This document shows, piece after piece, positions 1,418 through 18,381 of a DNA stretch of 43,150 bases; position 1 is the first letter of the stretch, and every line of letters begins with the position of its first letter. Source of the DNA: an uncultured Bacteroidota bacterium. Lineage in GTDB: Bacteria > Bacteroidota > Bacteroidia > Flavobacteriales_F > PHOS-HE28. Below the pieces are notes generated by a model. The model saw nothing but the letters and a program-made list of their open reading frames with translations. It ran no database searches and was not told where the DNA came from. The DNA lies in contig CADECG010000011.1 in the NCBI GenBank assembly GCA_902825795.1, forward strand, positions 1-43,150. The letters are read 5' to 3'. The translations under genes were made by a program, and so were the position numbers.

Positions 1418-4127
1418 CATTCGGTTGCAACTCGGGTTCGGGGGCAAGAGCCGCCTGCTCGCGTTTGAGTCGTGCCATGGGACTTTCCTCGAGGTCTTCT
1501 TCCTCGGGTAGCTCCAAGTTGCCGACCTCATCCTCCGAGATGAGCATCTGCTGGCGCTCCTCCAATTCGGCGGTCATTGGAATAAAGACCGGGTCGAGCA
1601 GTTCCAATTCCTTCACCTTGAAGGAGCTCAGGCGGTTGCCGATGGCTTTCACACCCTTCACACCGATGAATTTGGCGAGGTCCACTTGCTCGTCGCTCTT
1701 CTGCGCGCTGCGCTGATCATAACGCACATGCATGCGCGGGGTGTCCACCAAACTGTGCAGTTCCAACTTGCTCTCGGGGTGTTCGGTGATGAAGAGCACC
1801 GGGTCGCGTGCTGGTTCCACTTCGAAGCGCTTCACATGGTGCAGCTTCTTATCACCGTCGAAGTACACCGCGCTGATGATCTGGCCTTCGCGGTACTTCA
1901 CCACGGTAAGAGCATCATCGGGGAAGTGCGTGCTGAGCGCATACGGCAGTAGCAAGTAGTGGCCACTCTTCGTAACGCACAACAGCTTGTCGTCACCGGA
2001 AAAACGCCCGAGGTAGCGGCCATGTCCGGTGTCGTTCATGCGGCGCACGGTCTCGTCGTACCAAATGGGAATGGCACCGAGGGTACTGCCCCCTACCTGC
2101 AGTTGCGTCACCTTTTGCACCATGTGGCGCGTGAGCAGATTGCCTTGGCTGCTGCGGCCTTTCACGGCTAGCTGCGCGAAGTCCACATCGAACTTGTTCT
2201 TGCGCAGGTTGGAACGTGCGCGTAGGAGGATCTGCACTGTTTCCGCGCGGCCATCGGGGTGCGCTGTGAAGTAGATGATCTTGCTTCCGGTGGTTCCCTT
2301 GGTCAGGTCGTAGTCCTTATCCCGCGTGATACCGGTAACGGCGAAGCGCTTCATGAAGCAAGCGCCTTGTGTGCCGTCCTGGTAGATCATATGGTAGATG
2401 GTGCGCTCGTCGCCCTTCTTCCACACACCGATGTGCAGCAGGTCCTTGCCCATGAATTTCTTGTCGGCCACCTTGGTCACCATCATGGTACCGTTGGCGC
2501 GGAACACGATGATGTCATCGATCTCGCTGCACTCGTCCACGAACTCGAAGTTGCGCAGGCTCCAGCCGGCGAATCCTTCGGCCCGGTCCACGTAGAGCTT
2601 GCGGTTGGCCACCGCGACTTTCGTGGCTACGATGGTATCGAAGGTGCGCAGTTCGGTCTTGCGTTCGCGGCCAGCGCCGTATTTCTTCTTCAGGTCCTTG
2701 AACCAATCGACGGCGTGCTCCACGATGTTGTTGAGCTTGTCCTTCACCACCGCGATCGCATCCTCCAGACCCTTGATGTGCTCATCGGCCTTGAAGCTGT
2801 CGAACTTGCTGATCCGCTTGATCTTGATCTCGGTGAGGCGCACCACATCCTCGTCCGTCACTTCGCGCCGCAGGTCTTTCACGTGCGGCTTCAAGCCCTT
2901 GTGGATGGTGGCCATCACCTCCTCCCAGCTCTCGGCTTCCTCAATGCGGCGGTAGACTTTCTTCTCGATGAAGATGCGCTCCAGCGAGGCGAAGTGCCAC
3001 TGCTCATCGAGTTCGTCCAGCCTGATCTCCAACTCGGTCTTCAGCAACCGCAACGTGTTCTCCGTGCTGGTGCGCAGCAGTTCGGACACGGTGAGGAAGC
3101 GGGGCTTCTCGTTCTCGATGACGCACGCATTGGGCGCGATGCTCATCTCGCAATCCGTGAAGGCGTAAAGCGCGTCGATGGTGTTATCAGGCGAAACACC
3201 GGTGGCGAGGTGCACGATGATCTCCACGTTCTCGGCCGTGTTGTCCTCGATGTGGCGCACCTTGATCTTGCCCTTGTCGTTCGCCTTGATGATGCTTTCG
3301 ATGAGGCTGGCGGTCGTGGTCCCGAAAGGGATCTCGCTGATCACAAGTGTCTTTGCGTCCTCCTTGCGGATACGGGCACGCACGCGTACGCGACCGCCGC
3401 GTTCGCCGTCGTTGTAGTTTTCGCAATCGGCCAAGCCTCCCGTGGGGAAGTCCGGCATCAAGCGAGGCCGTTTGCCCTTCAGCACGGCCACGCTGGCATC
3501 GCACAGTTCAAGGAAGTTGTGCGGCAGCATCTTGCAGCTCAAACCCACCGCGATGCCTTCGGCACCCTGTGCCAATAGCAGCGGGAACTTCACCGGCAGG
3601 TGGATCGGCTCCTTGTTGCGGCCATCGTAGCTGGCCTGCCATTCGGTGGTCTTGGGATTGAAGACCACCTCCAGCGCGAACTTGGAAAGTCGCGCCTCGA
3701 TGTAACGCGGGGCAGCGGCGGAGTCGCCCGTGAGCACGTTGCCCCAGTTCCCTTGCGGGTCGATGACAACGTCCTTCTGGCCGAGCTGAACCAACGCATC
3801 GCCGATGCTGGCATCGCCGTGCGGGTGGTACTGCATGGTGTGGCCGATGATGTTCGCCACCTTATTGTACCGCCCATCGTCCAACACCTTCATGGAATGC
3901 AGGATGCGGCGTTGCACCGGCTTCAAGCCGTCGTTCAACGCCGGTACGGCGCGCTCCAGGATCACGTAGCTTGCGTAATCCAGGAACCACTCGCGGTACA
4001 TACCGCTCACGCTGAAGGCGCTGCCGCCTTCGCCCGGAACTCCTTTGTGGTCCGGCGCTGCATGACCATTGGCTTCAGTACCGTTCTCTTCCGGGGCATT
4101 CAAACTTTCGTCTTTCTCGTCGCTCAT
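1365..4127 (-). CDS. parC: DNA topoisomerase IV subunit A (ParC/GyrA family)
   Basis: A 920-residue type IIA topoisomerase A subunit that cleaves and rejoins DNA during chromosome decatenation. An acidic low-complexity head of about 35 residues precedes the core. The core has LNDGLKPVQRR (64-74), the quinolone-region stretch HPHGDASIGD (101-110) and AAAPRYIEARL with the likely catalytic Tyr142. A C-terminal beta-pinwheel-like region follows from about residue 490. The end GKKPGKQIKLGLD is basic. Assignment to ParC rather than GyrA rests on the operon with a ParE-like subunit and on resemblance to Bacteroidota ParC; GyrA is the alternative. It is the last gene of the parE operon, 30 bases after a lipoprotein gene. 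Confidence 0.93.
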   Translation of the reverse strand: MSDEKDESLNAPEENGTEANGHAAPDHKGVPGEGGSAFSVSGMYREWFLDYASYVILERAVPALNDGLKPVQRRILHSMKVLDDGRYNKVANIIGHTMQYHPHGDASIGDALVQLGQKDVVIDPQGNWGNVLTGDSAAAPRYIEARLSKFALEVVFNPKTTEWQASYDGRNKEPIHLPVKFPLLLAQGAEGIAVGLSCKMLPHNFLELCDASVAVLKGKRPRLMPDFPTGGLADCENYNDGERGGRVRVRARIRKEDAKTLVISEIPFGTTTASLIESIIKANDKGKIKVRHIEDNTAENVEIIVHLATGVSPDNTIDALYAFTDCEMSIAPNACVIENEKPRFLTVSELLRTSTENTLRLLKTELEIRLDELDEQWHFASLERIFIEKKVYRRIEEAESWEEVMATIHKGLKPHVKDLRREVTDEDVVRLTEIKIKRISKFDSFKADEHIKGLEDAIAVVKDKLNNIVEHAVDWFKDLKKKYGAGRERKTELRTFDTIVATKVAVANRKLYVDRAEGFAGWSLRNFEFVDECSEIDDIIVFRANGTMMVTKVADKKFMGKDLLHIGVWKKGDERTIYHMIYQDGTQGACFMKRFAVTGITRDKDYDLTKGTTGSKIIYFTAHPDGRAETVQILLRARSNLRKNKFDVDFAQLAVKGRSSQGNLLTRHMVQKVTQLQVGGSTLGAIPIWYDETVRRMNDTGHGRYLGRFSGDDKLLCVTKSGHYLLLPYALSTHFPDDALTVVKYREGQIISAVYFDGDKKLHHVKRFEVEPARDPVLFITEHPESKLELHSLVDTPRMHVRYDQRSAQKSDEQVDLAKFIGVKGVKAIGNRLSSFKVKELELLDPVFIPMTAELEERQQMLISEDEVGNLELPEEEDLEESPMARLKREQAALAPEPELQPNDPLIGKKPGKQIKLGLD

Positions 4128-4157
4128 CTTGCTTCTGTCGTCCTGAAAATTGAACTC

Positions 4158-4586
4158 CTATTGCACCGCCGTCCCGCAGAACCGATAGCTCCGCGAATTG
4201 CTACCGACCGCGACGACGCTTATGTCCATGCAGTATTCGTTGCCGTATAACACATGCCGGTGTTCCACCGAGGCTTCGGTCGTGGCAGGCACCAACTGTT
4301 CGGTAATGTCGCTGGTGCCATCGTTCGTCTGCACACCCTCCAACTGATAAGAGATCGGCGACGGGAAGAGATCCGTGCGCACACGCATGTTGAACACCAC
4401 TACCGTGTCGATCACCACGAAACCGTTGTAGCGCAGCTCCGTGTCGGTGGAGAGGAGTTCAAGGATCGGTGGGCCGTCGTAATCAGGGTCCAGCGCGTTG
4501 GTAGTGAGGTCCGCTTCAGCTACTTCGTCCTTGTAGCAGCCCGCCAACAACGCGGCTGCGAACAGAACCGGGATGATCGCCTTCAT
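4158..4586 (-). CDS. Small lipoprotein inside the topoisomerase IV operon
   Basis: A 142-residue predicted lipoprotein. The signal is [16 protein letters not shown] followed by Cys17 (lipobox L-A-G-C). The mature part contains a beta-strand-rich region and two cysteines near the end (EYCMDI and RFCGT) that could form a disulfide. The ATG at 4586 overlaps the TGA of the upstream gene in an ATGA junction, which fixes the start; a longer TTG frame reads through that gene and was rejected. I do not recognise a family. Its position between parE and parC implies co-transcription with an essential operon but not a role in DNA topology. Confidence 0.8.
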   Translation of the reverse strand: MKAIIPVLFAAALLAGCYKDEVAEADLTTNALDPDYDGPPILELLSTDTELRYNGFVVIDTVVVFNMRVRTDLFPSPISYQLEGVQTNDGTSDITEQLVPATTEASVEHRHVLYGNEYCMDISVVAVGSNSRSYRFCGTAVQ

Positions 4587-5365
4587 CGCTTCACCAGGTT
4601 GAAGGTGAATCCACCGGCCCATGTGCCGCCACGCTCGCCCGGCACCCAAGCGAGGCCCTCGAACTTCAACCGCTCCTTGTCCTCGAAGAGCGGCACTTTC
4701 ATGCGGGCGCTCTTCACGTACAAGTAGGTTGTCAGCACTGCAAGTCCGCTGGTAATGCTGGTGGAGATGATGAAGTTCCGCTCCGCCTTTTCGAAGTCGG
4801 CCTGGTGCGCGGGCATGGTCTCGTTCTTCAGTCGCGATATGGCACCGGGGGAGGTCAGGGAATTGTATTGATCCACATCATCCGCCAATTGGTCGTGGGC
4901 ATTCTTGTACCTCACGAACATGGAAACACTGACGATGGCTGATACACCGGTAGCGGCCATGGGCAACAGGCGGTTCAGTTTGCGGTTGTTGCGGTACCGG
5001 AGCAATTGCTCCTGATAGACCTTGTACTCGTCGCTGTACGGCAGGCGCAACGTGAAGTCTCGGGTGATGTCCGGTAGCACCGTCAGTGTTGTATCGACAA
5101 TGCGGCGTGTAGGCGCCCAGAACTGGAAGCGGTGTTGGCCTGCGGGCAACGTCACCTCCCGCTGTTGCATCCGGTATTTGTCATCGAGCACGAAACTGAA
5201 CTCATGTCCGGGATCAATGAAGAGACGCAGCGTGCCGGGGATCTGCGCCGACGCTGATGAAATGAGGAGATGCGTGAAAACGAAGATGAACGCAAAGGAC
5301 TGCAAGCCGCAGGCCACAGGCTGCAGTCGCTTTCGAGCAGGATAAGTGGGGGCTGAATACTTCAT
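4583..5365 (-). CDS. Hypothetical secreted or membrane protein between parE and parC
   Basis: A 260-residue protein. A hydrophobic segment (about residues 21-40, ending SSASAQ) looks like a signal peptide with an unusually long polar head, which hints that the true start could be later. The following region ([18 protein letters not shown], then [13 protein letters not shown]) resembles a PEGA-type surface beta-domain, an inference from pattern only. Two further hydrophobic stretches near residues 133-150 and 198-218 suggest membrane segments flanking a charged region. The ATG overlaps the parE TGA by 4 bases, and its own TGA overlaps the next ATG in the same way, so translation is coupled along the operon. 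Confidence 0.7.
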
Positions 5366-7287
5366 GCCTCCACCTCTTCAATGGTTGACTGCGCGGCGCG
5401 CATGCGGCCTACTGCTGCTGCCAGAGGTGTCTTGGGTTCCTCTTCCTTCACCACATCCTTCTCCACTTTCAGGTTGTTGATGATGAACTCCTGGCGCTGT
5501 GGCGTGTTCTTGCCCATGAAGAAGTCGAGCAGTTCCTGCACCCCGGCGTCCTTGGTGATCATCACCGGCTCCAAGCGGATATCAGGACCGATGAAATGCT
5601 TGAACTCGTCCGGACTGATCTCACCCAACCCTTTGAAGCGGGTGATCTCAGGGTTCTTGCCCAGCTTGTGTATGGCGTTCTGCCGTTCCTCGTCGGTGTA
5701 ACAGTAGATCGTTTCCTTCTTGTTGCGCACCCTGAACAACGGGGTTTGCAGGATGTACAAGTGGTCGTTCTTCACCAGGTCGGGGAAGAACTGGAGGAAG
5801 AACGTGAGCAGCAGAAGGCGGATGTGCATGCCGTCCACGTCAGCATCCGTGGCAACGACGATCCGGTTGTAGCGCAGGCCATCCATACCATCCTCGATAT
5901 CGAGCGCTGCTTGGATCAAGTTGAACTCTTCGTTCTCGTACACCACCTTCTTGGTCAGCCCGTGGCAATTGAGCGGCTTGCCCTTGAGGCTGAAGACCGC
6001 TTGCGTGTTCACATCGCGGCTCTTGGTGATGCTTCCGCTCGCGCTGTCGCCCTCGGTGATAAAGAGCGTGCTCTCCTGTTTGCGCGGATCCGTCTTGCTG
6101 TCCGTGAGGTGCACACGGCAATCGCGCAGCTTTTTGTTGTGCAGGCTGCTCTTCTTGGCCCGTTCGCGCGCCAACTTCCGTATACCGCTCAACTCCTTGC
6201 GCTCGCGTTCGCTCTGAAGGATGCGTTCCTGCAACACCTGCGACACGTCGGGGTGTTTGTGCAGGTAGTTGTCCAGTTCGCGCGCGATGAAGTCGCCGAT
6301 GAACGAGCGCATGCTCTGCCCCCCGGGTTCGATCTCCTGACTGCCGAGTTTGGTCTTCGTCTGGCTTTCGAAAACCGGCTCGATGATCTTCACGCTCACC
6401 GCCGCAACGATCCCCGTGCGGATGTCACCGGCCTCCCAGTCCTTCTTGTAGTAGTCGCGAATGGTCTTGGCCACGGCCTCGCGGAAGGCCCCTTGATGCG
6501 TTCCGCCTTGCGTGGTGTGCTGGCCGTTGACGAAGCTGTAGTACTCCTCGCCATAATGGTTGGCGTGCGTCAAAGCCACTTCGATGTCGTCGCCCTTCAA
6601 GTGGATGATGGGGTACAGCGGCTCGCCGTCCATCTTGGTCACGAGCAGATCGAGCAACCCGTTCTTGCTCTGGAAACGCTGGCCGTTGTAGTGGATGCTG
6701 AGGCCCGTGTTCAGGTAGCAGTAGTTCCAGAGCAAGCGCTCAACGTGCACATCGCGGTACTGGAAGTGCTTGAACATGGATTCGTCCGGCACGAATTCCA
6801 CGAACGTGCCGTTGGGCTGATCGGTCTTCTGTTCCTTCTCATCCTTCACCAAGTGACCCATGTCGAAGAACGCCCGCTTGATGCGACCATCGCGCACACT
6901 TTCCACGCGGAAGGTCTTGCTGAGCGCATTCACGGCTTTGGTACCCACGCCGTTCAACCCCACGCTCTTCTTGAAGGCTTTGCTGTCGTACTTGGCCCCG
7001 GTGTTGATCTTGCTCACCACGTCCACCACCTTGCCCAGCGGAATGCCACGACCATAGTCGCGAACGCTTACGGTGTCGCCTTCGATCTTCACCTCCACCT
7101 TCTTTCCGTGACCCATCACGTACTCGTCGATGCAGTTGTCGAGCACCTCCTTCAGCAGGATGTATATGCCGTCATCGAAACTGCTGCCGTCACCCAGTTT
7201 GCCGATGTACATGCCCGGCCGTAGGCGGATGTGTTCCTTCCAATCAAGGGTTCGGATATGCTCCTCGTCGTACTTTACTTCGCTCAT
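5362..7287 (-). CDS. parE: DNA topoisomerase IV subunit B (ParE/GyrB family)
   Basis: A 641-residue ATPase subunit of a type IIA topoisomerase. The GHKL ATP site shows E47/N51 in [10 protein letters not shown]77 in RDYGRGIP, and the glycine-rich [16 protein letters not shown] near 108-123. The TOPRIM domain shows EGDSASGS (412-419) and DADVDG (481-486), the metal-binding residues of the family. The length is typical for ParE; the long GyrB insert of some lineages is absent. It is the first gene of a four-gene operon ending in parC. A promoter-like TATCTTCG lies about 50 bases upstream. Confidence 0.94.
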
Positions 7288-8248: not shown

Positions 8249-8749
8249 CTAGACCTTTCCCTGCGCCACGGCTCGCGCAATGAACTCGATCATTCGCTTG
8301 CGCATGGTTTCGTCATGCACTTCGTGCAAGCGCGCCTCGATGAACGACTTGTCGGTTTTCCGTTCTTCCCCATAACCCAGAATGCTGGGGACGTTCACTT
8401 GAATAGCGAAGCGCAGAAAGCGCAGTTCCACACTGTTGGGTGCCGTAACAATGGCGGCCTCAAGAATGTCCCTGCCGTCGTTGAAAGTGCCCAGCCGTGA
8501 GAACGGATTGATCTTGTGGGTGCCTTTGGCCATGGTGAGCACACCCAGATAGCCCTGTTGCAGGGGTTCGTTTCCAAGCTTCTCCGTGGTGATCCTGGTG
8601 TAGAGCCGATCGCATACGGCTTCGTCGGTGAACATCGGGCGGATGTTGCCACGGAGTTCGGCGAGCAGATCCACTTGCGCATACACATGCGGCGCGTGCA
8701 ACAAAGCTCCCGCACTCAATAACAGGACAATGGTTTGGGACAGGTTCAT
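8249..8749 (-). CDS. Secreted or periplasmic hypothetical protein
   Basis: A 166-residue protein with the signal peptide MNLSQTIVLLLSAGALLHAPHVYA, then QVDLLAELRG. The mature part is largely helical; LRFLRFAIQVNVPSILGYGEE (residues 109-129) is the most distinctive stretch and resembles a recurring motif of small uncharacterised Bacteroidota secreted proteins, an impression from memory. The C-terminus RMIEFIARAVAQGKV is amphipathic. The start ATG gives a complete signal peptide. It shares a terminator with the convergent gene at 7538-8149. Confidence 0.72.
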   Translation of the reverse strand: MNLSQTIVLLLSAGALLHAPHVYAQVDLLAELRGNIRPMFTDEAVCDRLYTRITTEKLGNEPLQQGYLGVLTMAKGTHKINPFSRLGTFNDGRDILEAAIVTAPNSVELRFLRFAIQVNVPSILGYGEERKTDKSFIEARLHEVHDETMRKRMIEFIARAVAQGKV

Positions 8750-8829: not shown

Positions 8830-11313
8830 TCAGAACCGCAGGTAGAACGACGGCTTGATGATGAACGGCAGCACTAGCTCGTTCCCCAAATGATCGAGCC
8901 GCCAGATGAAGTCCACACGAGCGATCTTCAGGATGTTCTCGATGCCGAATCCAACTTCGGTGTAGGGCCGATCGAGCGCGCTCTGCCAAGAACCGAGCAG
9001 GTATGGGCCGCTGGCGTTCTCGCTGCGGAGACCGCCATAGAACACTTTGCCCAACACGAACTCGCGCAGTTTCAACCGACGCACAAGCGGGATCTTGTTG
9101 AAGAACAAGCCCTCGAAATGGTGCTCCAGTTGCAGCGAGGCATGCTCGTCACTGGCGAACTCCATGTAGTTCATCAGGTTGAACGCATGGTCGTCGTTAA
9201 GTAGCAGTGGGTTGGCTTCGGGCGTGTGTAGCAAAGGATACGGCACCTGTCCGCTGACCATTCCCGCTTCGGCGATGATGTTCAAGTAACCCCATTTGTT
9301 CGCGCGCAGTTGGTGTTCGACTTTCAGCTTGTAGCTCTGGTGATCGTAGCCGCCATCGAGGAACCCTTGCATGCCGTTCAGCAATTCGAACGTCACCATC
9401 GGGTACTTGAGGAAGAAGAGCCTACGGTCGGTGTCGCCATAGTCGGCGGGCAACTTCCCGGCTCCCCATGCAAAGCGCAGGACAAGCTTCACACCGGCGC
9501 TCGCAATGCTGTTCATGGTGATCGTATCACCCTCGCTCGTGGTCCGGTGGAAGTCATAACCAACTGGCGCCATACGATCGCGGTACACCCCTGCCCGGCT
9601 GCTGAACCCGGTGAACCACTGCCGCTCCAGCCAGCCTTCGCTGCCCTCAGCCATCATGCGGTGATCGCGGCCTGCAATGCGGAACGGCGAGGTGAGCACA
9701 TGATCCAGCGGGATCATGAAAGGGCTGCGGCCCTGCTGCACTTGATCGTTGCGGTACCGCCCACCGAGCGACCAGCGTTTCCCATGCTCATTGGCCAAGT
9801 GCCATTGTGCGCTGGCTCCGCCTTTCCATCTACGATCACCGAAACCATAGGCGAGGTACCCTGCAAGTTCCACTCGCTTGCTGAAACGGTCGTTAGTACG
9901 CAACCCGAATTTGGCCCTGCTCCCCTCCGCTTCGTTGTAGCTATAGAACGTGAAGGCATGGCCGATATCGATCGGACCCGCTGGCAACCAGCCTTCCGCG
10001 ATGAGCTTCGATGCGTTGACGATGCGTTTCCACTTCGGGTCGTTGTTCATGCGGCCCACCATCTCTTCAAGGTCCCGCTCTTCCTGTGTCAGCGCATCGC
10101 GCCGTGCAACCTTCCACCACGCGCTATCGCGCTCCAACGCCAGAGGATCCATCACCACCGGATCCACGCCGGAATAAAAGTCATCGTCGCGCGGCCGGTC
10201 CATCACGATGTTCCTGACCTCCGTTGATTTCCTGCCGAAGAACCCGGTCATCTCCTTGCTGTTCTCCACCACGGTGAAGTCGGCCAGCACTTGGCTCCTG
10301 TGCATGAACCACTGGGTGCTATCGAGCCACTGGTAGTTGTATCGCAGCCAATAGTTGCGCACGAAATTCACGTTGGCTTCGATGCTGAACGCGAGATCGA
10401 CCTGCACAACCGCATAGGTGCTGTCGTGTATGAACATGGAACCGGTGAAGGCCACATCGCTGCGTCCCTTCGGTTCGAAGTCGATGCGGTGGCAGGGATG
10501 ACCACCAACGACGTAGATGCTATCGAACAGTTTGTGATCGTAGTTGCGATTATAATGGTCGTTGATGGGACTTGGGAACGCGTGATCGAGGATCACCACG
10601 TAGTTCTCGTAGATGTCCGGGTCGATGTACATATCCTCGACGAACTCCGTGATGCGAGGTGCCTTGAAGAACTTCACGGTGCGCCTGCCATGCACCACTT
10701 GTTTGTATTCCGGTGGTTGCTTGCGGTAGAAGTGTTCTTCACTGCTTTCGGTGAGCAGGATCGGCAAGTAGTTGACCCCGTCGGCCGTGGTATCGGCATA
10801 GTCCCAGATGTAATCGAACGGCCGCAGGAGCAGATTGCGCTTGGCCTTCTCGGTGAATTGGTTCAGGTCGAAGCGCACGCGGTGGTAGAGTTCATACTCG
10901 TAGGCCTTCAGGCGCGATGGACGGTTAACGGGTTTGTGGGCGATCACTTCGCGCAGGATGGCAAAGGCCGGGTTCTCGTGCGGTCGGCTGATGGTGAAGG
11001 CGCCGAGTTCCATGGCGTCCGGCACCAGTTCCACATCGATCTCTTCCGTGACACCAACGCTCACGGCCACCACTTGCGATCGGTAACCGAGCATGCTCAC
11101 CACAAGCGAATCGAAACCGCGACCGGTCTCCAGATAGAACCGGCCGCTGCTATCCGCATCGGCACCCACGTTGCTGCCTTTGAACACCGCCACGGCGAAG
11201 GGGACCGGTTCCAACGTAGCGGCATCCAGCACTCGCCCGAAGATCCTCGTGCGTTGGGCATTGGCCATTGCAACAAGGCATAGCGCGAAAGCCAACAACA
11301 CGGATCGCCGCAT
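8830..11313 (-). CDS. DUF5686-type outer-membrane beta-barrel with carboxypeptidase-like N-domain
   Basis: An 827-residue protein: signal peptide MRRSVLLAFALCLVAMANA, then a CarboxypepD_reg-like domain (about residues 20-105: IFGRVLDAATLEPVPFAV, DADSSGRFYLETG, SMLGYRSQVV), then a long beta-strand-rich region ending FIIKPSFYLRF with the terminal Phe typical of Bam-inserted barrels. This architecture matches the Bacteroidota DUF5686 family, whose function is not firmly known. The ATG at 11313 was chosen because it begins the signal peptide; a frame extending 87 codons upstream overlaps the divergent sulfotransferase region and has no merit. Alternative: another TonB-independent barrel family. 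Confidence 0.85.
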   Translation of the reverse strand: MRRSVLLAFALCLVAMANAQRTRIFGRVLDAATLEPVPFAVAVFKGSNVGADADSSGRFYLETGRGFDSLVVSMLGYRSQVVAVSVGVTEEIDVELVPDAMELGAFTISRPHENPAFAILREVIAHKPVNRPSRLKAYEYELYHRVRFDLNQFTEKAKRNLLLRPFDYIWDYADTTADGVNYLPILLTESSEEHFYRKQPPEYKQVVHGRRTVKFFKAPRITEFVEDMYIDPDIYENYVVILDHAFPSPINDHYNRNYDHKLFDSIYVVGGHPCHRIDFEPKGRSDVAFTGSMFIHDSTYAVVQVDLAFSIEANVNFVRNYWLRYNYQWLDSTQWFMHRSQVLADFTVVENSKEMTGFFGRKSTEVRNIVMDRPRDDDFYSGVDPVVMDPLALERDSAWWKVARRDALTQEERDLEEMVGRMNNDPKWKRIVNASKLIAEGWLPAGPIDIGHAFTFYSYNEAEGSRAKFGLRTNDRFSKRVELAGYLAYGFGDRRWKGGASAQWHLANEHGKRWSLGGRYRNDQVQQGRSPFMIPLDHVLTSPFRIAGRDHRMMAEGSEGWLERQWFTGFSSRAGVYRDRMAPVGYDFHRTTSEGDTITMNSIASAGVKLVLRFAWGAGKLPADYGDTDRRLFFLKYPMVTFELLNGMQGFLDGGYDHQSYKLKVEHQLRANKWGYLNIIAEAGMVSGQVPYPLLHTPEANPLLLNDDHAFNLMNYMEFASDEHASLQLEHHFEGLFFNKIPLVRRLKLREFVLGKVFYGGLRSENASGPYLLGSWQSALDRPYTEVGFGIENILKIARVDFIWRLDHLGNELVLPFIIKPSFYLRF

Positions 11314-11428: not shown

Positions 11429-12514
11429 ATGTCCACCATCAACGGCACCCGCTCACCCTTCAGTGCGCACGCGGCATACGGATCGAGCCTGCGTGCGTGG
11501 TGCCGCGTGCTGTTGAAGCATGGAGGAACGATCGGTGTAACGTACGTCCCGAGGGTTTTGGCCATCACCGCCATGATCGCGCTGAACGCGCCGTTGCGCT
11601 GGCTCGAACACCTGCGCTATGATCGCCGCATCCGGAAGGCCATTGTCAAGGACCCCGTCTTCATCTTGGGACATCCGCGCAGCGGCACCACTTACCTGCA
11701 CTATGTGATGAGCCGCGATCCGCAGTTCGCTTTCGCATCTGTGTACGAGAGCCTGATGCCGTGGACGTTCCTCGGCATGGGCCGCTTCCTGCGAAACGTG
11801 CTCGGCAAAGCCCTACCAGCCACACGGCCCATGGACAATGTGAAAATGACCGCCGATGCACCGAAGGAGGAGGAGTTCGCGCTGGCGTGCATGGGTCCGG
11901 AGTCTTTGGTCATAGGCTACTTTTTTCCGCGCCAGCTGGGCGAAGTGTTCAATGCGACCGTGTTGTTGAAGGATGAAGCCAGCAGACGTCACTGGCAACG
12001 GCACCTGCTCTACTTCATGCGAAAACTCACGGTGAAGTACGGACCGAAGCCTCTGCTCATGAAGAGCCCGGCCAATACCGCAAGGGTGAAGGAGATCCTG
12101 GAACTATTTCCGAATGCACGCTTCATTTTCATCCATCGCGAACCGTTCACAGTGTACGCAAGCACTATCCGGCTTTACAGCAAGATCCTGCCGCAACAGG
12201 CACTTCAAAGCGTGAGCGCGGAAGCTGTTCGCGACTTCGTCCTTTCGAGTTACGCACCAATGCGCATGAAGTATGAAGACGATCAGGCGCTCATACCTGC
12301 GGGGCACTTGGTGAAACTGCGGTACGAGGACTTCATCGGCCGCGAGCTGGAACTGCTCGAAGCCGCTTATCGCCAACTCGGGCTCGAAGGTTTCGCGCTG
12401 GCGCGGCCGTTCATGGAAGCCGAGATCAATGCTACAAGCGGCTATGAGACGAACACATACACGTTGAGCAAGGAGGACGTGGCTGCAGTGAAGAAGTCCT
12501 GGGGACTTTGGTGA
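11429..12514 (+). CDS. Sulfotransferase family protein
   Basis: A 361-residue PAPS-dependent sulfotransferase of the Sulfotransfer_3 type. The 5'-phosphosulfate loop is GHPRSGTTYL (81-90). The 3'-phosphate motif is in RFIFIHREPFTVYAS (231-245, with R237 and S245). A conserved KSP stands at 212-214. A helical or hydrophobic N-terminal region (40-60) precedes the catalytic domain and may contact the membrane. The ATG at 11429 was preferred to an earlier frame that overlaps the divergent DUF5686 gene. Its stop lies 9 bases from the stop of the convergent acid ligase, so it flanks the biosynthetic cassette; whether it acts in that pathway is inference. The acceptor substrate cannot be read from the sequence. 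Confidence 0.85.
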   Translation: MSTINGTRSPFSAHAAYGSSLRAWCRVLLKHGGTIGVTYVPRVLAITAMIALNAPLRWLEHLRYDRRIRKAIVKDPVFILGHPRSGTTYLHYVMSRDPQFAFASVYESLMPWTFLGMGRFLRNVLGKALPATRPMDNVKMTADAPKEEEFALACMGPESLVIGYFFPRQLGEVFNATVLLKDEASRRHWQRHLLYFMRKLTVKYGPKPLLMKSPANTARVKEILELFPNARFIFIHREPFTVYASTIRLYSKILPQQALQSVSAEAVRDFVLSSYAPMRMKYEDDQALIPAGHLVKLRYEDFIGRELELLEAAYRQLGLEGFALARPFMEAEINATSGYETNTYTLSKEDVAAVKKSWGLW

Positions 12515-12523
12515 GTGTCGTCG

Positions 12524-13930
12524 TCAACCGCGCCTCACCTTCCCCGTTACAGTCATGGGCAATTGAGCGACGAACCGGATGCGTTGCGGCAGTTTGTGCA
12601 CCGTCAAGTGCTTGCGGCAGTGCGCGATCAGGTCCTCCACATCAAGAACCACATCCGCCTTCAGCACCACATCAGCCTCCACGATCTCGCTCAAGAGTGC
12701 GTGCGCCCCACCACGCACGCGTGACCCAACAACGAATGGATGCGCGTTGATCACCGCCTCCACTTCCTCCGGAAAGACTTTATTGCCGGCCACATTGATC
12801 ATGGACTTACTACGGCCACGAACGGTGATGAGACCATCTGCGCCTCGCGTTGCCAGATCGCCCGTAAGGAACCAACCATCGCGCAGAATGTCGCCTCGAA
12901 GCACCGGTGGCGCCAAGTAGCCATCGAACATGCCCGGGCCTCTCAAGGCCAGCTGGCCGACCGTACCATCAGGGATCGGATGCAGCGCGTCATCCAATAT
13001 GGCGACTTCAAAATCGGGCAGTGCGTGGCCGACAGCCTCCGGGTGTTCAGTCGCGCTGCGCATGTTGATGATCGGCAGCCCCACTTCAATGATCCCGAAG
13101 GCTTGCGACACCGGTAGTCCGAACTTCTTGAAGAAGCTCGCGCACAGCTCTGGCGACGACCCCGCACTGGTGGAGATCACCCGCTGCAACGGCCCAAGCG
13201 AAGTACAGGTCGGATCGGAGACGAGCAAGCGAACGTGCATCGGCGATGCATAGAGCAACACCGCATTCGAGGCTTCCGCCGCACGGACGATCTGCTCCGC
13301 CGTGAAATCCTCGCTGAGCACAATGGTCGCTCCGTGGTATAGGTAGAGCATCACCGACACCACGAAGTGATAGGCCATGGGCAGCACCCACACCACAGCA
13401 TCGCCCGGCGCGAGCTGCAATCCCTTGTTCGCCGCCTCCACCCGCTCGATCACGCTGCGATGGGCGATGATCACACCTTTCGATGTGCCGGTGGTTCCGC
13501 TCGTGAAGCGGATGAACGCGGCATCGGGCACGTGGGGGGCGATGCGATGCTCTTCCCGCACGAACAACTCGAGTGTGTAGCGCCGGACACCGATAACTAC
13601 AGCACCGGCCGCCGACTCGCGCAGCACCGCATGTAACCCTGCCTCGTGTATCAGTTGTCCCTGCTCCGATGCCGTGAGGTTGCTGGCGATCGGCAAAACG
13701 ACCGCATTGCACTTCAACCCGGCCAACATGGCGATGATGAACTCCGGGCTGTTGCGATCGACGACGCCGAGGCCGTTGCCGGGGACCAAGCCGAGCTGCC
13801 GAAATACATCCGCCAGTCTTTCCACTTGTTGCAACAGCGACCCATAGCTGATCGCTCCTTCGCTCGTGCGCACTGCGGCATTCGGTGCATACAGTGCGTT
13901 CCGGTCGTGTATGGCGTCAAAGAAGTTCAT
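12524..13930 (-). CDS. AMP-forming acid ligase (standalone adenylation enzyme)
   Basis: A compact 468-residue member of the ANL superfamily, which activates a carboxylic acid as its adenylate and transfers it to CoA or a carrier thiol. Core motifs seen: A3 FTSGTTGTSKG (142-152), A5 as AFGIIEVG (278-284, Glu kept but the usual YG/TE replaced), A7 TGDLA (356-360), A8 GRSKSMINVAGNKVFPEEVE (372-391) and A10 TGKVRR with the catalytic Lys near 464. The protein stops almost immediately after A10, shorter than acyl-CoA synthetases (usually over 500). It is the last gene of the carrier-protein cassette, 3 bases after the oxidoreductase. The neighbouring carrier protein suggests acid:carrier-protein ligation, but a CoA ligase cannot be excluded. 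Confidence 0.88.
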   Translation of the reverse strand: MNFFDAIHDRNALYAPNAAVRTSEGAISYGSLLQQVERLADVFRQLGLVPGNGLGVVDRNSPEFIIAMLAGLKCNAVVLPIASNLTASEQGQLIHEAGLHAVLRESAAGAVVIGVRRYTLELFVREEHRIAPHVPDAAFIRFTSGTTGTSKGVIIAHRSVIERVEAANKGLQLAPGDAVVWVLPMAYHFVVSVMLYLYHGATIVLSEDFTAEQIVRAAEASNAVLLYASPMHVRLLVSDPTCTSLGPLQRVISTSAGSSPELCASFFKKFGLPVSQAFGIIEVGLPIINMRSATEHPEAVGHALPDFEVAILDDALHPIPDGTVGQLALRGPGMFDGYLAPPVLRGDILRDGWFLTGDLATRGADGLITVRGRSKSMINVAGNKVFPEEVEAVINAHPFVVGSRVRGGAHALLSEIVEADVVLKADVVLDVEDLIAHCRKHLTVHKLPQRIRFVAQLPMTVTGKVRRG

Positions 13931-13933
13931 GGC

Positions 13934-15181
13934 TCAGTGCGGAAGCTGTTCAGCCCGAAGACGTGCAATGGCCTCATCCCTCGACTTTCCGAGCGCATGA
14001 TACGCCGCAAGCATCCCGGCCGCATAGCCCGTGCTGAGGCACGTGCCGATAACACGTGCGCTGGCGATCGCCATTTCCGATGCGCTGATACCACGACCCG
14101 CGAAGTACAATCCTTCAATTGCAGCGGATTCGAGAGCTCCAGCGGGAATCAAGTAATGCTCTCCCTCGGGCAGCCATTGCATATCCGCCCCGGGTCCGTC
14201 CCCCCAATGCTCAATCGGCCACGCGCCTACAGCAACACCATCTGTGGGCTTCTGCGCTCCGAGCACTTCAGTCTGTGTGAGAATGTGCTTACCCACCGGT
14301 CGTTGCTCCGTGCGCACACCGATCTCCGGTGCAATGGACTTGATGGTGCACTCGCTGCACGCTTCAACTTGTTGACGGAGGAACTCAATGATCTCCAACG
14401 CGGTGCGATGCCCGAGCGCATTCAATTCGTTCAGGTCCTCGCCTTGTTCGGGTCGGTGGCGCAGGGTCACCTTCACCCCTACCGACCCATCGCGCAACGA
14501 ACCGTGCAGTATTCCAATATGTTTCACCGCTGCTACACGTTCATCGCCGCTCTCGGTCGCCCGCATCAACGCGCGCATCATCGCCGGCGCCAACGTCCGC
14601 GCATCGTCCGTCCGGATACCGCCCAAGAAGAACACCTGGCTGGGCGCTTGATACTGCTGCTCCGTGATAACGGCCGCCTCGCACAGCTTGGACACTACTG
14701 CACCACCCGCACAATCGATCACGGCGCCCGGTGAAATGGCATAAGGCCCCGTCGGGCTCTCAACATGCACACGGCTGATCCCGCGGTCATCCACCTCGCA
14801 TGATACAACGGTTGTGCGAAGCCTTGTGAGTTCGTTGAACCCGATCAATGGCATCATGGCAACTTCGTTGAACGCATCAATGCGGTACGGGATGTACCAC
14901 AGACCGTTCGCCCCGCGCTCGGGCACGGTTCGTCCACAGGCCATCACATCCACACAGAAATCACGCACTTGGCCGATAAGCGCCCATCGCGGCTGTTCAT
15001 CGTGTGAACGCAGGAAGGCACCACAGATGGTTCCGACCATGGCATTGGTCGCCTTGCCGCCGAACCGATCCGCTCGGTCCAGGATCATGTAGCTCGCCCC
15101 CGAGGCATGCAACGCCAATGCGGCGCCATAGCCCGCAGCGCCGCCACCGACAATGAGCACATCACACCGTTCCTGTTCCAT
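13934..15181 (-). CDS. FAD-dependent oxidoreductase of the biosynthetic cassette
   Basis: A 415-residue flavoprotein resembling the FAD_oxidored family. The dinucleotide motif is DVLIVGGGAAGYGAALAL at the N-terminus, followed by an acidic strand end (YMILDRADRFGGKATNAMVG) and a C-terminal FAD contact GLYFAGRGISASEMA. Start ATG 15181 (MEQERCDV) was chosen because it places the Rossmann strand at the usual distance; ATG 15196 is possible and a further upstream frame is not credible. It overlaps the acyltransferase gene by 20 bases and ends 3 bases before the ligase ATG, so all are co-translated. The substrate is unknown; a carrier-bound acyl chain is a guess from context. Confidence 0.82.
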   Translation of the reverse strand: MEQERCDVLIVGGGAAGYGAALALHASGASYMILDRADRFGGKATNAMVGTICGAFLRSHDEQPRWALIGQVRDFCVDVMACGRTVPERGANGLWYIPYRIDAFNEVAMMPLIGFNELTRLRTTVVSCEVDDRGISRVHVESPTGPYAISPGAVIDCAGGAVVSKLCEAAVITEQQYQAPSQVFFLGGIRTDDARTLAPAMMRALMRATESGDERVAAVKHIGILHGSLRDGSVGVKVTLRHRPEQGEDLNELNALGHRTALEIIEFLRQQVEACSECTIKSIAPEIGVRTEQRPVGKHILTQTEVLGAQKPTDGVAVGAWPIEHWGDGPGADMQWLPEGEHYLIPAGALESAAIEGLYFAGRGISASEMAIASARVIGTCLSTGYAAGMLAAYHALGKSRDEAIARLRAEQLPH

Positions 15182-16469
15182 CCGTTGGTGCGTCATTGCC
15201 CGTGAGATGCTGCACAAGATCGCGCTGGAAGCGGTCGAACTCGCTTGGCGAAAGGGCTTCGTACACAGCACCGAGAACGACTTGCATCCCTTCCGCATTG
15301 CGCTTGAAGGTCACCGTGAGTCCCGGTGGCGATGGAACTGAGGCGTAGTCCACGATCCCGAGAACAGGTACACCTCCAAAATTGGCGATGCCTTCGCCTT
15401 CGTTGCCCAGATCCGAAAAGGACAAGCTGGCGTAGTCGCCGCGCATCGGTAGGTTCACCAGAGTGCTGTACAGCCAAAGCGGCACACGGCGGAAGAAGTT
15501 CAACAGCGACGAATAGCGATGAGGAATGCCGTCGCCAAGCTGCTTCTTCACTTGAGTATGGACAGTCGCGATCGCTCGCTTCGGGTCGCTCACTTCATCC
15601 GCCTTCAACCGCGCGAAGACGAACGACAAGCTGTTCGAGAAGAGATGCCCTACGCTTCCCTTTTTGCGCGTGCTCACGGGCATGCTCAGCCAGAAGTACG
15701 GAGGCTGCTCGCGTCGCTGATCGAACACCTGTTGCAAAGCCTTGAGCGTGATCGCGAGGTGGAAGTTGCTGTTGCCGAAACGAGCGCCGTGTGCCCAAGC
15801 ATTGCGGTCCACGACCTCGCGCTGTGCGCGGGACAATTGGACCACCTTGAATACAGGGTTGGAAACATGGCCAGGTGTTCCACGCAGCAGCCGGGCCATG
15901 AACCAGAACGGCGAGCCGAGCATGTAGAACATGATGTATACCGTATTGCGGAACTCGGGCCACCAGTGCTCTTGGCTCCGCTTCGGGAAGAGTTGCTCCT
16001 GCGGCCACGGAGGCGCACCGGGTTGTATGGCATTCGCCAGATTCACCATACCACGCTGATCAAAGAGCGCATGATGCGCCGAGATCACGAGCCGCTTGCT
16101 GCCATTGGCGAAATGCAGAAGATCCGCGCGCACAGTACTTCCCGTTAACGGCAGATCGCGGTGCAGGACCATGACGTTGAAATAGTCACTTGTGCAGCGC
16201 TCGTGCACGTCAACGTTTTCCACAGCATCCACGCCACTCCTGCTCTCCCAGCGCGGCATAACAAGGGTTGCGCGCTTCATGCGCAGGGAAACAGCGAGTT
16301 GGAAATTCCGGTTGACGGCGATACCCGCTGCCAACGCTTGTAGATCGGCGGATGGGTCGAGTTCGAGGGAAAGCCGAACCACATTACCCACCCGGCTGCG
16401 CTTGCGCATGTGACGGTCCAATAGGACCTGGAAATTGTCGGCACCGGAAAGTGGGTAACGCAGTTCCAT
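15162..16469 (-). CDS. HxxxD acyltransferase (condensation / wax-ester-synthase-like)
   Basis: A 435-residue member of the chloramphenicol-acetyltransferase-like fold superfamily. The active-site motif is HHALFDQRG at 132-140 (His133, Asp137). A second family-like stretch, SMPVSTR (262-268) followed by FSNSLSFVFARL, resembles the PVSxR/GN region of WS/DGAT and condensation domains. Such enzymes transfer an acyl group from a thioester to an alcohol or amine. The start ATG at 16469 overlaps the carrier-protein stop as TGATG, giving strict coupling; a frame extending upstream into the carrier gene was rejected. A hydrophobic patch near 176-195 may bind a lipid or membrane. The acceptor is unknown. 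Confidence 0.82.
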   Translation of the reverse strand: MELRYPLSGADNFQVLLDRHMRKRSRVGNVVRLSLELDPSADLQALAAGIAVNRNFQLAVSLRMKRATLVMPRWESRSGVDAVENVDVHERCTSDYFNVMVLHRDLPLTGSTVRADLLHFANGSKRLVISAHHALFDQRGMVNLANAIQPGAPPWPQEQLFPKRSQEHWWPEFRNTVYIMFYMLGSPFWFMARLLRGTPGHVSNPVFKVVQLSRAQREVVDRNAWAHGARFGNSNFHLAITLKALQQVFDQRREQPPYFWLSMPVSTRKKGSVGHLFSNSLSFVFARLKADEVSDPKRAIATVHTQVKKQLGDGIPHRYSSLLNFFRRVPLWLYSTLVNLPMRGDYASLSFSDLGNEGEGIANFGGVPVLGIVDYASVPSPPGLTVTFKRNAEGMQVVLGAVYEALSPSEFDRFQRDLVQHLTGNDAPTDGTGTV

Positions 16470-16738
16470 CAACGACCGGTTGCTGAGGCCGTGGCGATGG
16501 CAACGGCGCAACGCGCAAGGGCATCGGCACTGCGCAGGTTTTCAGGGCGCAACGCGTCGTCCGGCAGAACGATACCGTGTTTGCGCTCCAAATACATCAC
16601 CAATTCGATGATGGACATGCTGTCTACGCCCAGCTCTTGGAACGGAGTGCTAGGCGTGCACACCACGTTCCTGTCGAGCACCCGTTCGCGCAGGTAGTCG
16701 CAGAGTTCATTGGCCAACTGGGTCGGGTCGTTCGTCAC
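16469..16738 (-). CDS. Standalone acyl/peptidyl carrier protein
   Basis: An 89-residue carrier protein. The phosphopantetheine attachment site is GVDSMSIIELVMYLE, with Ser40 in the D-S-M context, followed by the expected helix. The most plausible start is a GTG at 16738 (VTNDPTQL), giving the usual carrier length; an upstream ATG frame at 16849 would overrun the divergent gene and adds a non-carrier-like basic leader. It is the first gene of the cassette and overlaps the acyltransferase start by one base (TGATG). A promoter-like TACGTTCG stands 18 bases upstream of the GTG. The tail ATASATGR is slightly long and flexible. Confidence 0.85.
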   Translation of the reverse strand: MTNDPTQLANELCDYLRERVLDRNVVCTPSTPFQELGVDSMSIIELVMYLERKHGIVLPDDALRPENLRSADALARCAVAIATASATGR

Positions 16739-16818: not shown

Positions 16819-18381
16819 ATGGAACAGGTGGAACTGGCTGCATCCCCATCAGCCGAAGTCCGAATGAAAGGCCCAGGCGCGTCGCGTGGGCGCACCAGCG
16901 CGAAGGGCACCTGCGCGGTGATCGGATCGGGGATCGCCGGATTGGCGTCAGCGATACGCTTGGCGCATGCCGGGCACAGCGTAACGGTGTTCGAGGCTAA
17001 CGCCTATGCCGGTGGGAAGATCAGCGAGCTGCGCATGGGCGGCTATCGTTTCGACATGGGCCCCACGGTGCTCACCATGCCACGATACATCGATGAACTG
17101 TTCGCATTGTGCGGCGAAGACCCGCGTGCGCACATCAGCTATCAGCGCATCGACCCCGGCTTCCAGTACTTTTTCCAGGACGGCAGTGTGATCCGCACGT
17201 GGGCGGATGCCGACCGTTTTGCTGACGACGTTGCGGCCAATACCACGGCCACTCGCGAAAGCGTGCTCACTTTCCTGGACCGCTGCCGGGTGAAGCGGGA
17301 ACTCACGGAAGAAGTGTTCCTGGAGCGTTCGCTGCACCAGTTGAAGAACTACTTCAACAAAGCCACACTGCGCGGGCTGCTCAACTTCCACAAGGTGGGG
17401 GCCTTCACCACCATGGCGAAAGCGAACGCTGCGTTGTTCAAGGACGAAAAGGCGGCTGCGGTGCTGAACCAGTTCGCAGGCTACACGGGCAGCAATCCAT
17501 ATGCGGCGCCAGCCACGCTGAACCTCATCGCCTACTACGAACTGGCACTGGGCTCGTTTGCGGCGCATGGCGGCATGCACGCCATTACGCAAGCACTGGT
17601 GGAATTGGCAAAACGCCAAGGTGTGCGGTTCGAACTCAACGCACCGGTTGAACGCATCCATGTGGAAGGCAAGACCTGCAAGGGCATTTCGGTGAACGGG
17701 CGCGAGCTGCCGTTCGATCGCGTGGTGACCAACACAGATATCCAAGCCACGTATGATCGCCTATTACCGGACCAACGGAAGCCCGAGCGTGTGCTGCGTC
17801 AACCACGCAGCAGCAGTGTGATCCTGTTCCACTGGGGTGTGGACCGGACGTTCCCCGCACTGCATTTGCACAACATGTTCATGAGCAGCGATGGTCGGGC
17901 CGAGTACGATCACATCTTCAACAAAGGCACCTTGCACCCCGACCCGAGCGTTTACCTGCACATCAGCAGCAAGGTGAACGCTGCCGATGCACCGGCGGGC
18001 TGCGAGAACTGGTACGCCATGGTGAGCGTGCCGCACAACACCGGACAGGACTGGGACACGTTGGTGCGGCAGACCCGCGCTACGGTGATCGGGAAACTAT
18101 CGCGCATGTTGAAAGTGGACGTGGAAGCGCATATCGCATGCGAACACACCATCGACCCGCGCACATTGGAACAAATGACCTCCTGTGCGTTCGGTGCCAT
18201 CTTCGGTATGAGCAGCAACGGCATGTTCGCGAGCATGCTGCGGCATCCGAACTTCAGCAGGCGCATCAAGGACCTCTACTTCTGCGGTGGAAGCGTGCAC
18301 CCCGGCCCCGGCATTCCACTGTGCCTGCTCAGTGCAAAGATCACTGCCGGGCTGGTGGAAGAAGATGTCGTTAGACGTTGA
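16819..18381 (+). CDS. CrtI/CrtD-like carotenoid-type desaturase or oxidase
   Basis: A 520-residue FAD enzyme of the phytoene desaturase family. The N-terminal motif is CAVIGSGIAGLASAIRLAHA, then VFEANAYAGGKISEL and the family stretch FDMGPTVLTMPRYIDELF. The C-terminal FAD motif is LYFCGGSVHPGPGIPLCLLSAK, characteristic of CrtI/CrtN/CrtD proteins. Start 16819 was chosen relative to the promoter-like box; 16864 (MKGPGASRG) is an alternative. No phytoene synthase or cyclase lies nearby, so it either completes carotenoid synthesis encoded elsewhere or acts on another polyene or lipid. It is divergent from the carrier-protein cassette. Its 3' end overlaps the ychF 3' end by 11 bases. Confidence 0.85.
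   Translation: MEQVELAASPSAEVRMKGPGASRGRTSAKGTCAVIGSGIAGLASAIRLAHAGHSVTVFEANAYAGGKISELRMGGYRFDMGPTVLTMPRYIDELFALCGEDPRAHISYQRIDPGFQYFFQDGSVIRTWADADRFADDVAANTTATRESVLTFLDRCRVKRELTEEVFLERSLHQLKNYFNKATLRGLLNFHKVGAFTTMAKANAALFKDEKAAAVLNQFAGYTGSNPYAAPATLNLIAYYELALGSFAAHGGMHAITQALVELAKRQGVRFELNAPVERIHVEGKTCKGISVNGRELPFDRVVTNTDIQATYDRLLPDQRKPERVLRQPRSSSVILFHWGVDRTFPALHLHNMFMSSDGRAEYDHIFNKGTLHPDPSVYLHISSKVNAADAPAGCENWYAMVSVPHNTGQDWDTLVRQTRATVIGKLSRMLKVDVEAHIACEHTIDPRTLEQMTSCAFGAIFGMSSNGMFASMLRHPNFSRRIKDLYFCGGSVHPGPGIPLCLLSAKITAGLVEEDVVRR

Follow-up and report, generated by a model that had tools for sequence, protein, structure and literature searches.

The window analysed here, 43,150 nucleotides of contig CADECG010000011.1 (assembly GCA_902825795.1) from an uncultured Bacteroidota bacterium, raises the question of what is made by an operon of four genes at 12524-16738. 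The genes lie on the minus strand and encode, in this order, a carrier protein, an HxxxD acyltransferase, an FAD (flavin adenine dinucleotide) enzyme and an acid ligase. The initial annotation had regarded them as a pathway to an unknown product. While we could affirm that they form a real, conserved carrier-based acyl-transfer set, the cassette turned out not to be an orphan, as its acceptor is very probably a carotenoid, judged from the genes that accompany it. On balance, we favour the reading that the four genes serve acyl transfer within a locus for carotenoid tailoring. The cassette is strongly linked to carotenoids; what we say on the acid, on the precise acceptor and on the chemistry of the flavoenzyme is predicted.

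Layout and conservation of the four-gene operon

Inspection of the sequence and Pfam searches gave the following genes:

16469-16738, minus strand: acyl carrier protein (ACP); GTG start at 16738, TGA stop at 16471-16469; PF00550, E=2e-9
15162-16469, minus strand: stand-alone HxxxD acyltransferase (condensation/PapA/WS-DGAT fold); HHALFDQRG, invariant HxxxD, predicted fold
13934-15181, minus strand: FAD-dependent oxidoreductase, GR2-type flavoprotein fold; PF12831, E=2.7e-58
12524-13930, minus strand: carboxylic-acid:AMP (adenosine monophosphate) ligase; PF00501, E=5e-57; PF13193 above cut-offs

The ATG of the acyltransferase gene shares bases with the TGA of the carrier gene (TGATG), the FAD gene starts at 15181 and overlaps the acyltransferase gene by 20 bases, and only 3 bases separate its stop from the ligase start. 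The phosphopantetheine site of the carrier is Ser40 within GVDS; D39 and S40 were invariant in an alignment of 23 homologues. Genes, order, strand, overlaps, Ser40 and HHALFDQRG were all as described in the initial annotation.

The acyltransferase of the window exceeded the cut-off of no Pfam family (Condensation, WS_DGAT, PapA, Transferase). Among 28 members, weak matches to Condensation, WS_DGAT_C and PapA_C were obtained, the best with an E-value of ~2e-4. An AlphaFold2 model (predicted local distance difference test, pLDDT, 90.4) was related by Foldseek to 8s6l (template modelling score, TM, 0.75), to condensation domains and to WS/DGAT enzymes. We placed the protein in the HxxxD superfamily because H133 and D137 were invariant in 28 aligned homologues and because the predicted fold is of the condensation type. 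With PapA5, WS/DGAT and nonribosomal peptide synthetase condensation enzymes it shares the HxxxD motif, the fold and presumably the reaction, in which an alcohol or amine accepts the acyl group of a carrier-bound or CoA thioester, but it differs from them in remaining below every Pfam cut-off and in having its own carrier. By these sequence criteria, it is a distinct stand-alone HxxxD subfamily with a carrier of its own.

The ligase alignment disclosed the catalytic C-terminal Lys and, at the amino-acid-binding position, FVVS. Amino-acid-adenylating enzymes carry FDxS at this position of the adenylation domain; a non-amino acid substrate is therefore likely, probably an acid without an alpha-amino group. 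The closest solved chains were feruloyl-CoA synthetase and malonyl-CoA synthetase. The model of the FAD enzyme (pLDDT 89.5) matched many flavoproteins with TM scores of about 0.5, a spread that indicates no single reaction; hydroxylation, dehydrogenation and reduction are all conceivable, and the oxidation of a carrier-bound acid presumed in the initial annotation is one option among several. FVVS in place of FDxS and a flavoenzyme belonging to PF12831 and not to the acyl-CoA-dehydrogenase type do not fit a prolyl-carrier pyrrole pathway.

A scan of genome contigs for close relatives with the single acyltransferase as query found nothing. Scanning named genomes with the ligase alignment yielded 80 loci (52 from Bacteroidota, 28 from other phyla), 55 of which contained the same four genes collinearly, namely 34/52 in Bacteroidota and 21/28 elsewhere; many of the remaining loci are cut by contig ends. 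This collinearity is far beyond chance and affirmed that related Bacteroidota possess the same genes in the same order. Distance correlations among acyltransferase, FAD enzyme and ligase (0.88-0.91, a figure inflated by relatedness) were as expected of a unit inherited together.

We also studied the distribution of the parts in a sample of 395 Bacteroidia genomes, for which, as for the named-genome loci, the main tables were drawn from six-frame hidden Markov model scans and individual genes within loci were called by a simple gene caller. The acyltransferase was present in 27 genomes of 9 genera, and a uniform scan of the loci revealed carrier and acyltransferase genes adjacent to each other nearly everywhere. 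Ligase and FAD enzyme were tested in 27 genomes, a set not identical to the former as it included the cassette-free same-genus controls G010 and G016. Both were found in 14 genomes and neither in 13, even where the two genes were unlinked, and we therefore concluded that they function as a pair. Carrier and acyltransferase without this pair occurred in family f9 and in five same-genus genomes, from which it follows that they are the core of the cassette. Thus, of the four-enzyme unit previously proposed, the pairing of ligase and FAD enzyme stood, whereas a constant association of all parts had to be rejected, also because the parts are scattered in f4 and G075. The assumption that a Trp-halogenase-like flavoprotein substitutes for ligase and FAD enzyme was discarded as well, since it is absent from the same-genus genomes lacking both.

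Carotenoid genes accompanying the cassette

A crt gene was situated within 10 kb in 26 of the 34 collinear Bacteroidota loci, and crtB or crtI in 11 of them. Several of these loci adjoin crtI-crtB-crtZ-crtYcd operons; one stretch (L134, same record as L071) comprises CrtD, the cassette, a sulfotransferase, a DUF5686 protein, crtI, crtB, crtZ and crtYcd. Within the sample, CrtD resides beside or near the carrier and acyltransferase genes in families f1, f4, f9, f20, f23 and f61 with differing gene orders, and CrtZ-type hydroxylase genes lie within the cassette loci L019, L063 and L070 as well as in f20 and f61 loci. Of 27 genomes examined, including two same-genus controls that lack the cassette, 25 encode phytoene synthase and 26 CrtYcd. 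The genome of the window itself encodes CrtI (C29), CrtB, CrtYcd (C133) and, adjoining the latter, a CrtZ-like gene (L107), whose family was recognised by histidine motifs only, as Pfam and NCBIfam gave none.

In the window, the operon is flanked by a sulfotransferase, a DUF5686 protein and a CrtD, a context missed in the initial annotation:

16864-18381, plus strand: CrtD-family carotenoid desaturase, cassette-type paralogue, divergent from the operon; NF042421, 527 bits
16739-16863, no strand: intergenic region of 125 bp between operon and CrtD (coordinates and sequence)
11429-12514, plus strand, start codon approximate: sulfotransferase of the PAPS (3′-phosphoadenosine-5′-phosphosulfate) type; PF13469, 1.2e-28; motifs GHPRSGTTYLHY and IHREPFTVYAS
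8830-11313, minus strand, start codon approximate: outer-membrane DUF5686/CarboxypepD_reg protein; PF18939, 2.5e-43
8249-8749, minus strand: small, apparently secreted protein with homologues beside crtB in other Bacteroidia carotenoid operons; no family found in Pfam/NCBIfam

The intergenic region is presumably a shared promoter region of the divergent operon and CrtD, which may thus be regulated together. PF13469 and the conservation of both motifs, which were kept in 12 homologues, identify the sulfotransferase as PAPS-binding. The DUF5686 gene adjoins the sulfotransferase gene in most loci, also where both are located away from the cassette.

The specific sulfotransferase (>400 bits) was found in 26 of the 27 acyltransferase genomes, several times on another contig, and in none of the 368 genomes without the acyltransferase, where the best score was 341 bits. 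The sole exception, G276, has CruF, and its CrtD groups with those of CruF loci. In Bacteroidota, CruF is the 1,2-hydratase making the 1-hydroxy substrate of CrtD (PMC10784355); where present, its gene mostly adjoins a canonical CrtD. Nine Bacteroidota loci of the named-genome set contained CruF, none of them with a sulfotransferase nearby. Terrimonas ferruginea DSM 30193 (L168) and a Ferruginibacter metagenome-assembled genome (L152) harbour the cassette, an ABC transporter, CrtD, CruF, crtZ, crtYcd, crtB and crtI together, while in Reichenbachiella agariperforans DSM 26134 (L192) the cassette occurs with sulfotransferase and DUF5686 genes. Thus, two forms separate cleanly, a sulfotransferase form with a distinct CrtD, to which the window belongs, and a CruF form with a canonical CrtD (Terrimonas, Ferruginibacter). 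The sulfotransferase is not universal to the cassette and marks one of its forms.

The same division emerged from a tree of 57 desaturases, in which the CrtDs of sulfotransferase loci were set apart from those of CruF loci by one change; none of 500 shuffles was as clean. The CrtDs of sulfotransferase loci made up two supported groups, and there was no single clade for all cassette CrtDs. In the window genome (93.5% complete) we found no CruF (PF04240), the search not covering CrtC, the alternative hydratase; CruF was likewise missing from most genomes whose only CrtD is of the cassette type, several of them 98-99% complete. Tree and CruF absence led us to reject the idea that the cassette CrtD is an ordinary CrtD, even though the window protein passes the NCBIfam equivalog cut-off for 1-hydroxycarotenoid 3,4-desaturase (527 vs 500 bits); other cassette-type CrtDs score both above and below it. 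Two CrtD-family genes each, in different clades or places, were observed in G008, G053, G163 and G290, where annotation would name both as 1-hydroxycarotenoid 3,4-desaturase.

Proposed pathway and alternatives

From gene order, motifs, folds, conservation and carotenoid linkage we infer the following substrates, order of steps, ester, sulfate and role of the DUF5686 protein. The ligase would adenylate a carboxylic acid and load it onto the phosphopantetheine arm of the dedicated carrier, where the FAD enzyme may alter the acyl group by hydroxylation or (de)hydrogenation. The HxxxD enzyme, on genomic linkage a putative carotenoid acyltransferase, would then transfer the carrier-bound acyl group to a carotenoid (xanthophyll) hydroxyl; the genes for making this carotenoid (CrtB, CrtI, CrtYcd and CrtZ) lie at other places in the genome. 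The divergent CrtD-type desaturase might lengthen the conjugation of the carotenoid, acting on a substrate independent of CruF. The neighbouring enzyme, a candidate carotenoid sulfotransferase, would add sulfate, so that the product of the window is probably a carotenoid that is also sulfated, and the DUF5686 protein could handle or place the amphipathic pigment at the outer membrane. Attachment of an acid, and of sulfate via the neighbouring enzyme, to a carotenoid appears probable because the conserved set mostly accompanies carotenoid genes.

Compared with known systems, the cassette is often located beside genes of myxol/saproxanthin/flexixanthin-type sets of Bacteroidota (crtI, crtB, crtZ, crtYcd, cruF, crtD; e.g., Algoriphagus oki45, PMC10784355). 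The window shares with them a CrtD-family gene, and its genome crtI, crtB, crtYcd and a crtZ-like gene, with CruF not found. The published carotenoid set includes none of the four cassette genes, and the text of PMC10784355 contains neither 'acyltransferase' nor 'sulfo'. Sulfated xanthophylls, the class predicted here, are known from Erythrobacter (caloxanthin, nostoxanthin and zeaxanthin sulfates; PMC6627997), which however belongs to another phylum. The genes for sulfate incorporation into carotenoids were called unexplored in 2019 (PMC6627997). The literature searched, which mostly did not cover subscription journals, included no paper describing the four-gene set and no description of a carotenoid and a sulfotransferase with crtD, acyl carrier protein or Flavobacteriales.

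Several observations weigh against a role in carotenoid tailoring. No crt gene was found within 10 kb in 8 of the 34 collinear Bacteroidota loci or in any collinear locus outside Bacteroidota. Neither CrtB nor CrtYcd was detected in G086, a cassette genome that is 98% complete, perhaps owing to an assembly gap. As no CruF was detected in the window genome, the usual 1-hydroxy compound is unlikely to be what its CrtD-type enzyme desaturates. No close relative predicts the substrate of the ligase or the flavoenzyme, and the sampled species are related, so that p-values overstate their independence.

The cassette might instead make an independent acylated lipid or small metabolite, which the sulfotransferase would sulfate, the proximity of crt genes reflecting co-regulation or a shared outer-membrane destination. 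The eight Bacteroidota loci without a crt gene within 10 kb fit such a product, as do the scattered parts in f4 and G075 and the fact that HxxxD and WS/DGAT enzymes are often lipid-making. Nevertheless, the cassette is found together with CrtD over many families in varied arrangements, in several loci also with CrtZ, crtI, crtB and crtYcd, and the CrtD lineage follows the sulfotransferase form. We consider a separate lipid or metabolite unlikely, though it is the best surviving alternative.

A reduced aryl-polyene or flexirubin cluster, in which an aryl acid starter is loaded and handed to polyene-forming enzymes encoded elsewhere, appeared improbable. Aryl-polyene and xanthomonadin clusters resemble the window in their ligase, carrier and acyltransferase logic, the solved structures closest to the ligase are feruloyl- and malonyl-CoA synthetases, and homologues of all four genes reside in aryl-polyene-like clusters of other phyla. 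In Methylovulum psychrotolerans (L170) the cassette is surrounded by genes for an ApeP dehydratase, ketosynthases, a ketoreductase and an MMPL exporter; its neighbours in Nitrosomonas sp. JL21 (L140) include an FkbO/Hyg5-type chorismatase and a PlsC-type acyltransferase. Contrary to such clusters, the window has carotenoid genes and, in six frames, no match to ketosynthase, ApeP, ketoreductase or MMPL; homologues of ketosynthase, ApeP and MMPL were not found in the Bacteroidia loci of the sample either. Moreover, all genes are intact and conserved over many families, and the Bacteroidota form has recurrent carotenoid partners of its own. The earlier contrast with aryl-polyene clusters held for the window, but not for the homologous cassettes of other phyla. 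As to sulfonolipid biosynthesis, no gene for a PLP (pyridoxal phosphate)-dependent condensing enzyme or the cysteate pathway was present among the annotated neighbours of the cassette, a genome-wide search not having been made.

Still slightly less probable is a carotenoid acid or other polyene acid, made with CrtD-type help, as ligase substrate and transferred acyl group (e.g., onto a sugar or lipid head later sulfated): a CrtD without CruF could conceivably give a torulene-like 3,4-didehydro end oxidisable to an acid, and the ligase lacks the amino-acid-binding Asp, but the loci showed no obvious oxidase that could make a carotenoid acid, the closest solved ligases act on small acids, and outside Bacteroidota the cassette occurs without any CrtD.

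Beyond carotenoid tailoring in Bacteroidota, we tentatively put forward that the cassette is a portable pigment-capping module esterifying the hydroxyl end of chemically unrelated membrane polyenes, which would be carotenoids in Bacteroidota but aryl polyenes in Proteobacteria and, perhaps, in Verrucomicrobia. The sulfotransferase form in Bacteroidota would then make sulfated acyl-carotenoids and contain a bacterial carotenoid sulfotransferase gene. Both xanthophylls and aryl polyenes are long membrane polyenes that end in a hydroxyl, which would explain how one cassette serves both. This general scheme is possible though doubtful.

Implications and further observations

The analysis turns four orphan genes into a testable, predicted pigment-tailoring pathway that dozens of Bacteroidota species, including culturable ones, have in common, and the sulfotransferase gene of the locus is a candidate for the sulfation of carotenoids. 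There are signs that two distinct kinds of polyene pigment could be served by a single acyl-transfer operon. For annotation, the data indicate that a CrtD assignment by itself does not imply a 1-hydroxy carotenoid.

In many cassettes of Verrucomicrobia and delta-type/Desulfobacterales (L172, L180, L194 and others), a B12-binding radical SAM enzyme is encoded between acyltransferase and FAD enzyme, which suggests an extra modification of the acyl group. The small protein at 8249-8749 belongs to an apparently secreted family of ~160 amino acids without a Pfam/NCBIfam model, which was noticed beside crtB in numerous carotenoid operons of Bacteroidia (L103, L104, L108 and L110-L112). The f9 carotenoid operon at L103 also includes a gene (L103:4294-5541; homologue L104:6899-8146) for a GT28/EryCIII-like glycosyltransferase, and additional carotenoid glycosylation is probable in this genome. 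Finally, the window genome contains at G000:C79:1-10000 (L076) a Trp-halogenase-like flavoprotein (PF04820; 1540-2907) two genes from a distant crtI-family oxidase (3998-5518), and this region may be a second polyene or pigment locus.

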